Shown piece after piece: positions 11,322-15,294 of a stretch of DNA of 64,000 nucleotides. This stretch comes from Bacteroidota bacterium (GTDB taxonomy: Bacteria; Bacteroidota; Ignavibacteria; UBA10030; SZUA-254). The position numbers were made by a program, and so were the translations under genes. The notes beneath the pieces are model-generated. The model did no database searches and had not been told where the DNA came from. It was given only the letters and a program-made list of their open reading frames with translations. Location: contig JAGVIE010000025.1 in the NCBI GenBank assembly GCA_020056225.1, positions 102,995 to 166,994 on the forward strand, written 5' to 3'. The first letter of the stretch is position 1, and the number at the start of each line of letters is the position of its first letter.

Positions 11322-11370
11322 ATCGAACTTCAACTAGATTCTGTAGAACGAAGTGTTACTTCGTTCTACA
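11317..11370. repeat. REP-like composite repeat between convergent radical SAM and RAYT genes
   Basis: AATGTAAATCGAACTT (degenerate first palindrome) is followed by a near-perfect 29-base hairpin at 11342-11370: stem TGTAGAACGAAGT, loop GTT, and its complement. The left end contains the TAA stop of the radical SAM gene and the right end (GTAG on the minus strand) contains the TAG stop of the RAYT gene. A GTAG foot plus hairpin is the defining layout of REP sequences mobilised by RAYTs. Confidence 0.85.
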
Positions 11371-11992
11371 TTTCATATTTGCAGTAACTCCACTTCCACT
11401 TTTGCCAATCATCAACGAACTCCGCTTTTACAGGATTGTTTAATACGTATGAGATGATGTTAGCTAACTCCTTGCCGTTACGTATTACATGATCATAGCT
11501 TTCGTGCTGCCAGAATGCACCTGAACGATTCAGGATTTTATTGCATTCTCTTGCCGTGTAAGCTTTTAAAGATTGTAGCACCCTGTAAAGCGAAGTGCCA
11601 CTTCGCTCTACATCCGCAACCATGTGAACATGATTCGGCATAATACAATAAGCAATCAACTCGTACTCTTTTGTATCACGGAAGTGAATAGCATCAGCCA
11701 CAACTTGCGCCACTCTATCATCGCTTAACCACTTGTGACTATCCGAGTATTTATCCAGAAAGTCATCAAATCTATCAAAATACCGTTTACGATGTTCTTC
11801 AATTGCCGTCCTCTTTGTGTCTGGTTCGTTAATAGCAATTAGTCGTTGTTCTTCAAGTTCATATTCTTCTTTAAGTTTGATAATTACTTCATTCGGCAAA
11901 GAACCTGCGAGACGGAATGTAATAAAATATGATGCATGTGACGGTTGGTAATGAGGTAAGTTACGACGGTAATATATCTTTTCATCTTCCAT
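11366..11992 (-). mobile_element. REP-associated tyrosine transposase (RAYT, Y1/HUH, Transposase_17 type)
   Basis: A 208-residue Y1 transposase of the IS200-related superfamily. RAYTs cut and rejoin single-stranded DNA at REP hairpins and are usually single-copy domesticated genes. The metal-binding HUH motif is at IMPNHVHMVA (His121, His123) and the catalytic tyrosine is probably Tyr145 in LKAYTARECN. The N-terminal HYQPSHASYFITFRLAG and C-terminal YVLNNPVKAEFV are typical of the family. It is flanked on both sides by REP-like palindromes. One such palindrome lies inside the coding sequence, in frame, at residues 128-136. The stop codon sits in the downstream REP. Confidence 0.92.
11584..11612 (-). 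repeat. REP-like palindrome inside the RAYT coding sequence
   Basis: On the minus strand TGTAGAGCGAAGT and ACTTCGCTTTACA form a near-perfect hairpin with a 3-base loop, closely matching the extragenic REP at 11342-11370 and 12067-12095. It is read in frame as VERSGTSLY, between the HUH motif and the catalytic tyrosine. Confidence 0.85.
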
Positions 11993-11998
11993 ATGCTA

Positions 11999-12025
11999 TG
12001 TGAGCGAAATGAATTTCGCTCTACA
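11999..12025 (-). repeat. REP-like palindrome, second sequence type
   Basis: GAGCGAAAT-GA-ATTTCGCTC at 12002-12021. On the minus strand it is preceded by GTAG (12024-12021). It lies just upstream of the RAYT start codon. Confidence 0.75.
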
Positions 12026-12043
12026 ATATAATATTTTCAAAAT

Positions 12044-12066
12044 TGTAAATCGAACTTTAGTTCGGT
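12044..12066 (+). repeat. REP-like palindrome, first sequence type
   Basis: TGTAAAT is followed by CGAAC-TTTA-GTTCG (12051-12064). It is adjacent to the stronger palindrome at 12067 and matches the left half of the composite repeats at 11317 and 15226. Confidence 0.65.
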
Positions 12067-12095
12067 TGTAGAACGAAGTGTCACTTCGTTCTACA
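12067..12095. repeat. REP-like palindrome, near-perfect 29-base hairpin
   Basis: Stem TGTAGAACGAAGT, loop GTC, and complement ACTTCGTTCTACA. It is identical in both stems to the repeat at 11342-11370. Together these two bracket the RAYT gene. Confidence 0.85.
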
Positions 12096-12164: not shown

Positions 12165-12209
12165 TGTAGATCGAACTTCAGTTCGAGATGAGCGAAATAA
12201 ATTTCGCTT
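12165..12209 (+). repeat. composite REP-like repeat, broken at its right end
   Basis: GTAG at 12166 is followed by TCGAACTT/CAGTTCGA (12171-12186) and GAGCGAAAT-AA-ATTTCGCTT (12190-12209). Related copies continue with CTACA or TTACAT. Here the sequence switches after CTTT to the GC-richer dihydroorotase fragment, so the repeat ends at the junction with the apparently foreign DNA. Confidence 0.75.
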
Positions 12210-12773
12210 TGCCGGCGCTACAAAAACGCGACCTACGAGATAAGCCCAAACCACCTTTTCATGTCAACTGACGACATCAGGCGCCTTGGCGAATTGGGCA
12301 AGATAAACCCCCCTCTCCGCGACAAGCGCGAGCAGGCGGCATTGTGGAGGAGCATAAACGACGACACCATAATCTCATCCGACCACGCGCCCCACCTTAT
12401 AGCGCACAAGCTCACAGGCTCGCCCGGGTTTCCCGGCGTGGGAACGCTCCTGCCCCTGATGCTGAACGCAGTGCATGAGAAGAAAATAACAATGGAGCAA
12501 CTGGTGAAAATGTGCGCATACAACCCTTCACAGGCATTCCAGCTGAAAAATAAGGGCTCTCTCGCTCCAGGCTTTGACGCGGACATTGTTCTTGTGGACA
12601 TGAAAAAGAAATGGAGGATAACCGCGGAGAACCGCCTCTCCAAGTGCGGCTGGACGCCATTTGAGGGCAGGGAAGTCTGCGGGAAAATAGAAAAGGTGTT
12701 CCTGCGCGGAAAGCTCGCGTACGACGGGGAAAAAGTGACATCCAAGCCCGGCGAAGGCAGGGAACTGCTCTAG
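12210..12773 (+). pseudogene. dihydroorotase, C-terminal fragment (5' end missing)
   Basis: The reading frame is open from about 12210 with no start codon before conserved sequence begins: RRYKNATYEISPNHLF, then STDDIRRLG. The class I dihydroorotase signatures are clear: SSDHAPH (metal-site Asp and His), LMLNAVHEKKITMEQLV, and CGWTPFEGREVCGKIEKVFLRGK. Dihydroorotase closes the dihydroorotate ring in pyrimidine synthesis. Only about the last 185 residues exist, so the N-terminal metal-binding HxH half is absent. ATG 12261 is internal to the conserved sequence. Codon use (many AGG and ATA, GC-rich third positions) differs from neighbours. It is probably non-functional. Confidence 0.88.
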
Positions 12774-12852
12774 TTTCAGCTTTCTTCTCACAGAAAAAGA
12801 ATCCGATTCAACATCCATTCATCCATCAGAAGCCTTCACGCTGATTTCCGCC
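12774..12852. other. short gap between convergent fragment genes
   Basis: The 79 bases between the dihydroorotase stop and the small Cys-rich gene on the opposite strand show no clear hairpin terminator, promoter or RNA gene. Confidence 0.4.
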
Positions 12853-12972
12853 TCAACCAACGGTGTGGATTTTGCCGTCGCACTTGTCCGCGCTCGTGAT
12901 TTGCGCGCCCTTGCGCTCCTTTTCGCTTACGCGCGTGTCATAGCACCGTTGGCAATATTTTTTCTTTGCCAC
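12853..12972 (-). CDS. 39-residue Cys-containing basic protein, unknown function
   Basis: A GTG at 12972 has a perfect GGAGG seven bases upstream. The frame reads MAKKKYCQRCYDTRVSEKER followed by KGAQITSADKCDGKIHTVG and a TGA stop. A CxxC pair near the start, a further Cys and a late His could bind zinc. The high charge fits a small nucleic-acid-associated protein, but I recognise no family. It lies 48 bp downstream of the 13021 gene on the same strand and inside the segment suspected to be foreign. Its support is the ribosome site and sensible composition, and its short length limits confidence. Confidence 0.45.
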   Translation of the reverse strand: MAKKKYCQRCYDTRVSEKERKGAQITSADKCDGKIHTVG

Positions 12973-13020
12973 AACCAGGCCTCCATGGTTCTTTTTCCAT
13001 CCTGTATTATCCAATGAGTG

Positions 13021-13443
13021 TCAGTCCTGCTTCGACTTGGTGAAGAAATCGGTGGCGGGCGCGTCCTTCTTCATATCTGGTGACTTCTCAGCCTTCTCTT
13101 CGCCTGGCGTCTTTGTCTTGGGTGCTTTCGAGAGAGCATCCTCCCTGACTTTCGACTGTGTCTTCTTCCGTTTTCCACCCTCGGTCTCCTCCTGCTGCGT
13201 TTTTTGCGCCCCGCCGCCCTTGGGCTGGGATTTTGTTTTCTGTGTTTCTATTTCTTTTTGGACATACGTCAGAGTTTCAGTCAATTCCCATGTTTTTAGT
13301 AACTTTTGGAGTCCGTCGTAATCATTACTTTGCCACAATTTCTTGGCGAATCCCACTATGGTGTCTGTCGTTTTTTGGTCATAGCCTTTATTTTTCGATT
13401 CATTCCGAATACTTAGCTCAAGTTGTTTCCATTCCATTTGCAT
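13021..13443 (-). CDS. basic, low-complexity protein of unknown function
   Basis: A 140-residue protein starting at ATG 13443, chosen because GGAGGAG lies just upstream; the frame is open to GTG 13530 without a ribosome site. Residues 1-65 look helical (MQMEWKQLELSIRNESKNKG, then FAKKLWQSNDYDGLQKLLKT). Residues 66-140 are a disordered, Lys/Glu/Gln/Pro-rich tail (QPKGGGAQKTQQEETEGGKR...). No family recognised. It follows the C-terminal end of the 13535 gene closely on the same strand. It lies in the segment with codon use unlike the rest of the window. Confidence 0.6.
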   Translation of the reverse strand: MQMEWKQLELSIRNESKNKGYDQKTTDTIVGFAKKLWQSNDYDGLQKLLKTWELTETLTYVQKEIETQKTKSQPKGGGAQKTQQEETEGGKRKKTQSKVREDALSKAPKTKTPGEEKAEKSPDMKKDAPATDFFTKSKQD

Positions 13444-13534
13444 GGCTCCTCCAGCCAGTATGGGAGTCTTTTTTATGGCATCTTCTTTGATTTCAGTTGC
13501 TTTAAACTGAGTAAATTGAAAAATAAACACAATA

Positions 13535-15160
13535 TTACCTCATTGCAATAGCGTCTGGTAATACTTCTGCCTTAAACTTATCCAACGTGAGTGTTACTTT
13601 TACTTGTTTTTCACCGTCTTTAATTACTTCATCTCTTAAATCGACATGATTTTTGTCCTTACCTTGGCTAAATACTGGCATTACGAGTGGCGGCACGTCT
13701 CCGAAAAGAGTTTTGTAAGTAACGGCTATCACATCCTTGTTATTTGGATTAAGCACGAGTAAAGTTGTCGGAGTTGTTGCTAATGCAGAACCATCTTCGC
13801 TTAGAAATGTTGCTCCTTGGTGGTTAAAGATTTTACTTCCATCGCTTACACTCGTATATGCGAACGTTCCTTTTCTGTTCGGTTCTGGAAAAGCAGCCAA
13901 TATTCCGCTTTCGAATATTAAAAATACTCCGTCACCACCTGTCGTATATATCCTCTGTTTTATCTCGGCATTTGTAGGGATATTTAATTTAAGCTCTCCG
14001 AGATCTATATCCATCGTTACTGTTCCTGCGCCTTTTTTTACGCGGGCGAAGGTCAGAACTCCATCTTTCAGATCTACATCAAAATTTCTCTCTCCAATTA
14101 TTTTTGGCGCTTCAGGTATCTTTATTCTAGCTTGTGGAGGTAGTTTTGTCTCGCTCGCTACCGGCTTGTTCTCGGCAAGCATCCGTTTCTCCTGTTCCTG
14201 CGCGCTTGCGGGCGTGAATGCTGCTCCGCTGGTTGCAAAACATATCTGTGCCTTCAATCCATCGCTGTACCATATCTTATACTCGTAACTTGTCTTTAAA
14301 ACGGAGGACTGAAACAGAACCGCTTTCTCATCGGTTGAGCTTTCAGGCGCGAGAATCGGATTTCCTTCGTACTTTGCCCATGCTACTCCATCCCTTGAAA
14401 CCGCATACCCAATTGCTCGCTGTTTTGCATTGCCAAAATAGAATGCTTCATAATACAAACTATCAGGTAGTACATCGGCGATCCATTGCTCATACTCGTC
14501 CCATGTGCCGGGTGCACCAAATTCCAATAACGGATTGTTGAGCGTATCTTTTGTCCAATGAACACCGTCGGAAGAAACCGCAAGACCTGTGTACCAACGC
14601 GTATCCGAACGAAAACCGTTGTACCACATCTTCCACGTCGTACCTTGCTTCAGAACCGGTCCGGCAGATAAGCCGAAATCATCCCACCAACCCGGAGCTC
14701 CTTTTTTAAGGATAGGGTTATTGGCAGTGTCTTTAGTCCATGAGATTCCTTCGGGCGAGGTGGCATGGCAAATTGTTCCGGCATTTGCAAAGCTACGCGC
14801 AGTGTAGTACATGTGGTATTGTCTGCCGTCAAACAGAACTGCGCCCGGCGAGACAACCATGCCGTCAAGGTTATCACGCTCTCCAATTTTTAGAACGGGA
14901 TTGGCAGGGTGCTTCGCCCAATTGATGCCATCAACCGAAGTAGCATATCCAATTTGTCGAGACGTGTCGTTGGAGCCGGCATACCACATGCGATAGAGTT
15001 TACCATCAAAGAGTATCCTCGGGTGTGAGACTTGTTTGCTCTCCCATGAGCCGGCTGTCCCAAGCCGGAGAACCGGGTTGCCTTCGTATTTAATAAATTG
15101 TGCCTGTGCGGTGAAAGCCGCAGCCAGAAGAAGACATTTAAGAAGAATTGTAGTTTTCAT
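13535..15160 (-). CDS. secreted beta-propeller glycosidase-like protein with an unrelated C-terminal region (probable fusion)
   Basis: A 541-residue frame. A signal peptide (MKTTILLKCLLLAAAFTAQA) is followed by five repeats of the type YEGNPVL...W(D/E)...P.(I/V)L.DG..Y.MWY...IGYATS.DGI.W.K, to about residue 310. These are blades of a GH43/GH130-like five-bladed propeller. From about residue 312 the sequence changes (TPASAQEQEKRMLAENKPVA, then DVDLKDGVLTFARVKKGAGT...) to a beta-rich part with no propeller repeats and no T9SS domain. The codon choice also shifts (ATA for Ile, AGA/AGG for Arg). I infer that two unrelated genes are joined in frame near 14190-14250. The N-terminal part is confident; the C-terminal part is unrecognised. 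Confidence 0.8.
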   Translation of the reverse strand: MKTTILLKCLLLAAAFTAQAQFIKYEGNPVLRLGTAGSWESKQVSHPRILFDGKLYRMWYAGSNDTSRQIGYATSVDGINWAKHPANPVLKIGERDNLDGMVVSPGAVLFDGRQYHMYYTARSFANAGTICHATSPEGISWTKDTANNPILKKGAPGWWDDFGLSAGPVLKQGTTWKMWYNGFRSDTRWYTGLAVSSDGVHWTKDTLNNPLLEFGAPGTWDEYEQWIADVLPDSLYYEAFYFGNAKQRAIGYAVSRDGVAWAKYEGNPILAPESSTDEKAVLFQSSVLKTSYEYKIWYSDGLKAQICFATSGAAFTPASAQEQEKRMLAENKPVASETKLPPQARIKIPEAPKIIGERNFDVDLKDGVLTFARVKKGAGTVTMDIDLGELKLNIPTNAEIKQRIYTTGGDGVFLIFESGILAAFPEPNRKGTFAYTSVSDGSKIFNHQGATFLSEDGSALATTPTTLLVLNPNNKDVIAVTYKTLFGDVPPLVMPVFSQGKDKNHVDLRDEVIKDGEKQVKVTLTLDKFKAEVLPDAIAMR

Positions 15161-15225
15161 ATTATCCCCAATATAATATTCAAATTAAACTAACTTTTAC
15201 AATATTTCCAAGTTCTGCATTTAAA

Positions 15226-15294
15226 TGTAAATCGAACTTCCTCAAAGGGATCCTTCGGACAGTTCGATGTGAGTGAAATGAATTTCGCTTTACA
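15226..15294 (-). repeat. composite REP-like repeat with an internal insert
   Basis: On the plus strand it reads TGTAAATCGAACTT, then an unrelated segment of about 20 bases, then AGTTCGATGTGAGTGAAAT-GA-ATTTCGCTTTACA. It is the same two-palindrome unit as at 12165 and 12000-12064. The TAA stop codon of the Fe-S oxidoreductase gene (15292-15290, minus strand) lies within its GTAA. Confidence 0.75.

Follow-up and report, generated by a model that had tools for sequence, protein, structure and literature searches.

The stretch analysed here carries a block of DNA of archaeal origin that is joined in frame to a secreted propeller at a site which is empty in a relative, and the same composite is present in two further genomes of the same bacterial order. 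The stretch (hereafter the window) comprises 64 kb of a contig of 187,724 bases, from a bacterial genome of 3.5 Mb in 62 contigs that was estimated by the tool used as 100% complete and 0.79% contaminated. The best explanation, to which we assign a probability of about 0.5, is that a piece of a Micrarchaeon chromosome with the propeller-ORF1 fusion, ORF2, a CxxC ORF and the end of the dihydroorotase gene (pyrC) was inserted in the window's bacterium, with separate entries elsewhere. The features of the locus are listed in Table 1. The genomes used for comparison were G020 and G030 (metagenome-assembled genomes of genus g17, in the same order as the window's bacterium and a different family, whose copies came from an order-wide search), G001 (a relative in the window's family, of another genus, used as empty-site reference) and the Micrarchaeota genome UBA10161, the single named archaeal genome near the donor.

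Table 1. Features of the inserted unit and its borders (window coordinates).
Feature	Position	Strand	Evidence
RAYT (REP-associated tyrosine transposase), host gene left of the insert	11366..11992	-	NCBIfam NF047646 above cut-off; adjoins oxidoreductase without insert in G001
Host REP, two hairpins, cut at its end; left insert boundary	12165..12210	+	GCTTT common to REP and archaeal gene
Micrarchaeota dihydroorotase (pyrC), C-terminal part, truncated, frame otherwise open	12206..12773	+	79% aa identity to UBA10161; tree UFBoot 99
Small ORF, 39 aa, CxxC motif, GTG start (12972), GGAGG site	12853..12972	-	In-frame counterpart readable in G020
ORF2: variable N-terminal half, conserved C-terminal tail	13021..13443	-	Homologue beside ORF1 in Micrarchaeota UBA10161
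Hypervariable interior	13240..14145	.	~40-60% DNA identity among the three bacterial copies, against mostly 70-95% on either side (sliding identities, alignment)
Archaeal ORF1 domain, from remnant of archaeal signal peptide (AAFTPASAQEQEKR)	13535..14225	-	Profile A5: 6/301 Micrarchaeota-phylum genomes
Secreted beta-propeller part (GH130/GH32-like), in frame with ORF1	14226..15160	-	Pfam PF04041; aa identity 83% to G030, 75% to G020
Host REP, orientation as left REP; right boundary region	15227..15291	+	

Origin of the dihydroorotase fragment

The gene at the left end had been described in the initial annotation as a dihydroorotase lacking its N-terminal half, and it matched residues 228–418 of the 418 residues of the intact UBA10161 gene. 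In the pyrC tree the window and G020 fragments were sisters nested beside UBA10161 (UFBoot 99). Two full-length dihydroorotase-like genes of their own are present in each of the window's bacterium, G020 and G030 (in G020 the match to one of them contains stops), and these are 29–33% identical to the archaeal gene, against 79% for the fragment. The transferred gene is thus nested among the donor lineage and far from the recipient orthologues. The protein searches with the genes of the block agreed with this, since the best matches of the archaeal genes did not lie among the host's relatives. The suggestion of laterally transferred, DPANN-like archaeal DNA is therefore supported, and the comparison places the source among Micrarchaeota near UBA10161.

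The foreign composition and codon choice that had been noticed across the block proved real for part of it. The 4-mer composition of positions 12201–13400 deviated by 3.9–6.2 SD from the host towards Micrarchaeota, and codon usage was strongly archaeal in pyrC and the ORF2 tail and lay between host and archaeon in the propeller. The anomaly stops near 13400: positions 13250–14150 are AT-rich and by 4-mers indistinguishable from the host, but archaeal by homology, and ORF1 is AT-rich in UBA10161 as well. Composition alone would miss half of the insert.

Insertion site and extent of the unit

The left edge had been placed exactly where a REP breaks off, and this is what was found: the REP ends in GCTTT and archaeal pyrC homology starts at 12206. 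The archaeal sequence at this point reads GAGCTTTGCCG and also has GCTTT, so that the left joint lies within the five shared bases. This supports insertion at a REP, and the joint would have been formed by microhomology or by RAYT/REP cleavage. In G001, RAYT and the oxidoreductase are neighbours separated by a single decayed REP, and neither insert nor propeller is present, whereas the same site in the window holds several REP segments and a 3-kb unit. Since the empty site lacks the propeller too, the propeller belongs to the insert. From these comparisons the unit is delimited at ~12206 to 15226 (right end about 15110–15226), propeller included, between two REPs (12165–12210 and 15227–15291) in the same orientation, as looked for in a RAYT/REP-mobilised element. 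The initial annotation had set the block at 12210–14230; archaeal sequence does stop near 14225, where the fusion joint lies, yet by the empty site in G001 the inserted unit continues through the propeller.

Sequence common to the window and G030 stops near 15109, inside the signal peptide, which indicates that signal peptide and promoter region are the window copy's own. As read by eye, palindromes lie near both ends of the G020 copy, and in the G030 copy none is close to the left end. In G020 (L016:700-900) several different short palindromes crowd the left flank, and the contig begins beside them with the remnant of an IS3-like transposase (also by eye). The RAYT unit of the window (11342–12095) is of textbook form, with the gene between two inverted REPs (29 nt, 93% complementary).

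Recurrence of the composite in two further bacteria

In both G020 and G030 a propeller is joined to ORF1 at the archaeal signal peptide and is followed by ORF2 and pyrC, most of the latter being deleted in G030. These composites occupy other chromosomal sites, with bacterial neighbours that differ from those of the window. At the left end of the G020 copy two further archaeal scraps were found, a Fic gene (81% to UBA10161) and a CDP-alcohol transferase fragment, whose homologues lie ~1 kb apart in UBA10161.

The recurrence bears on a chimera of archaeal and bacterial DNA, arising by assembly or binning of a mixed metagenome, which had been raised at the outset. G030 and UBA10161 are metagenome assemblies by their titles, each of the three genomes is fragmented, the contig of G030 is short and the G020 locus lies near a contig end, all of which would favour such an artefact. 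However, three assemblies have the composite, 74–88% identical as DNA and bordered left and right by bacterial sequence that differs between them, and the left joint shares GCTTT alone, too short for repeat-driven misassembly. A chimera is hence strongly disfavoured and highly improbable, and it was rejected on the recurrence. Cargo of a virus or plasmid was likewise unsupported, since phage, viral and plasmid records gave only distant propeller matches and no composite.

The fusion gene and its neighbours

Both ends of the block had been said to carry truncated genes. This is the case on the left (dihydroorotase), but the right-end gene is intact: its 541 aa form an in-frame fusion, with the propeller followed by the ORF1 domain and the joint motif AQICF..SAAFTPASAQEQEKR. 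The propeller matched PF04041 and PF00251 (glycosidase/phosphorylase-like). The description of this part as host-like did not hold, since the nearest relatives found in the class other than those of G020 and G030 are only 35–45% identical. A distant propeller relative (about 28%) without the ORF1 domain is encoded in the Micrarchaeota-phylum genome G386 (L064:4132-5172). The fusion product is predicted to be exported, propeller first and variable domain after it. In G020 a 2-base deletion puts propeller and ORF1 out of frame, and this broken copy suggests that the fusion protein is dispensable there.

ORF2 and the 541-aa gene correspond to a native gene pair of UBA10161, an exported ORF1 ('...TALSAALSPTYAQEKEKG...') followed by ORF2. 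The GGAGG ribosome sites noted for two genes, one of them with a GTG start, were confirmed: one belongs to the small ORF and the other precedes the ORF2 ATG at 13443. The six genomes recovered with the ORF1 profile (A5) among 301 of the Micrarchaeota phylum all belong to UBA10161's family, and a sample of 394 further genomes of the window's phylum yielded none. As judged from these profile searches, the ORF1-ORF2 secreted-protein locus appears restricted to few Micrarchaeota of the 301 plus the bacterial copies. UBA10161 has two tandem ORF1 copies, with domains 47% identical, plus ORF2 (L060:1-2381). In 4 of the 6 archaeal metagenome-assembled genomes the ORF1 family lies at contig ends, as if assemblies break there.

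Pfam, NCBIfam and PHROGs gave nothing usable for ORF2 or the ORF1 domain. PADLOC gave no match, and a defence system was rejected on this basis. The ORF1 domain matched the designed propellers 'Cake' weakly in sequence (E 0.002), a hint only, and AlphaFold2 on the fusion with two rows gave a pLDDT of 33.

Variable interior

The interior contrasts with its flanks, where DNA identity is ~80–95% in pyrC and mostly 70–90% in the propeller. In the N-terminal part of ORF2, G030 and UBA10161 are 67% identical, and all other pairs are at 22–28%, about the level of shuffled sequence; in the C-terminal part G020 and G030 are 90% identical and other pairs 40–56%. These alignments show mosaic ancestry, with core alleles common to several species and exchanged between conserved flanks; the middle of ORF1/ORF2 behaves like a swappable cassette. 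Variable core, conserved flanks and mosaic ancestry, three features of an antigenic-variation cassette system, were found together. In the archaeal donors the ORF1/ORF2 interior would be a rapidly swapped cassette; the protein it belongs to would be exported and probably bind at the surface, with a putative role as hypervariable binding protein at the archaeal cell surface.

Divergence of the copies and number of transfers

Silent and replacement rates, approximate by the Nei-Gojobori method, were compared among the copies. The pyrC fragments of the window and G020 differed by ~50 silent and 25 replacement changes (dN/dS 0.109), and dN/dS against the intact archaeal gene was 0.106; only 79 codons of the G030 pyrC were comparable. 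Drift of a dead fragment would give ~73–78% replacement changes and was rejected at P ~1e-12 or less. The predominance of silent differences (dN/dS 0.11) indicates that the copies diverged while intact, before truncation. In the propeller, dS between G020 and G030 was 0.98, against 0.30–0.43 in their host genes; between the window and G030 it was 0.67, and the one clear orthologue on which host divergence between the window and g17 rests was saturated. Propeller dS is thus out of step with the host genes, and the copies were not inherited from a common bacterial ancestor. These rates are best explained by separate transfers out of a donor pool, at least two in number as we infer. The pool would most simply be archaeal because pyrC was intact there, and the donors were probably Micrarchaeota already carrying the fusion; a bacterial vehicle with an intact pyrC is possible as the donor.

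Propeller dS is about three times that of pyrC, and the parts may therefore have different histories. Together with a slightly different joint (CFATSG|AAFTP in the window, CF(A/T)LSAAFTP in G020 and G030), this gap would suit independent fusions, bacterium by bacterium, of archaeal ORF1 fragments to related propellers, with short matches at the signal peptide as the guide. We regard this as unlikely, since a near-identical joint would hardly form three times by chance, and the three propellers are xenologues that resemble one another far more than they do any other propeller found in the order.

It is also possible, if doubtful, that archaeal DNA entered a bacterium once and was fused there to a bacterial propeller, after which the composite with an intact pyrC was spread by a mobile element. 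Its interior would later have been exchanged by recombination with newly arriving archaeal DNA, and truncation of pyrC would have been a local event. The fusion is known from bacteria only, the signal peptides and propeller composition look bacterial, and the site beside RAYT and between REPs suggests local mobility. Such a course would nevertheless require lasting selection on an archaeal pyrC in bacteria that already had two dihydroorotases, the composite was on no plasmid, phage or virus contig searched, and the similarity of the G030 and UBA10161 cassettes demands repeated archaeal input anyway.

In the preferred explanation, an unsampled Micrarchaeon close to UBA10161 would have given a chromosome piece to the REP cluster beside RAYT. 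This piece would have carried the secreted propeller-ORF1 fusion, probably present already in the archaeon, together with ORF2, the CxxC ORF and the terminal part of pyrC; two other bacteria of the order would have received related pieces independently. Against it stand the intermediate codon usage of the propeller, the threefold difference between propeller and pyrC dS, the location of pyrC and ORF1/ORF2 on different contigs in UBA10161, and the finding of no propeller-ORF1 fusion in any archaeon among the 301 Micrarchaeota-phylum genomes.

Comparison with known systems

The protein combines an exported propeller of bacterial type with an archaeal variable domain, and the same hybrid in three bacterial genomes suggests repeated DNA flow between two domains of life. 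To our knowledge, the hosts of most Micrarchaeota are unknown. All hosts of cultivated DPANN archaea are archaeal (PMC11291902). Repeated recent transfer of a hypervariable Micrarchaeota locus into one bacterial order would offer a named, testable partner. We suggest, quite tentatively, that Micrarchaeota of UBA10161's family lived in close contact with this bacterial order, took up the propeller gene from these bacteria, turned it into a surface protein that is hypervariable and gave DNA back to them repeatedly, the inserts being traces of a DPANN-bacterium association.

In antigenic variation, surface proteins swap cassettes between conserved flanks, with silent donor copies and switching. 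The locus resembles such systems in its conserved flanks and swapped interior, and in the tandem ORF1 copies of UBA10161.

Horizontal transfer in DPANN, including Micrarchaeota, has been used to infer symbiont-host pairs, as described in parts of PMC12892359, and as there foreign genes are common to a DPANN lineage and another organism. The pairs named in those parts are archaeal, whereas the present fragments, several from a single Micrarchaeota locus, are found in bacteria and are so recent that open frames and gene order persist. RAYT/REP units are known (PMC2817692), and the RAYT of the window is likewise flanked by inverted REPs; unlike such units, the insert encodes no transposase, and apart from the host REPs it lacks terminal repeats of its own. 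REPs are also known as insertion targets, according to PMC1525189, and the present insert similarly begins inside a REP and ends near another. Archaeal integrons have been proposed as cross-domain platforms and a route of gene transfer from archaea to bacteria (PMC9668308). The present block is comparable in its direction of transfer, but no integrase was seen in it, and it holds several genes and fragments on both strands instead of a single cassette.
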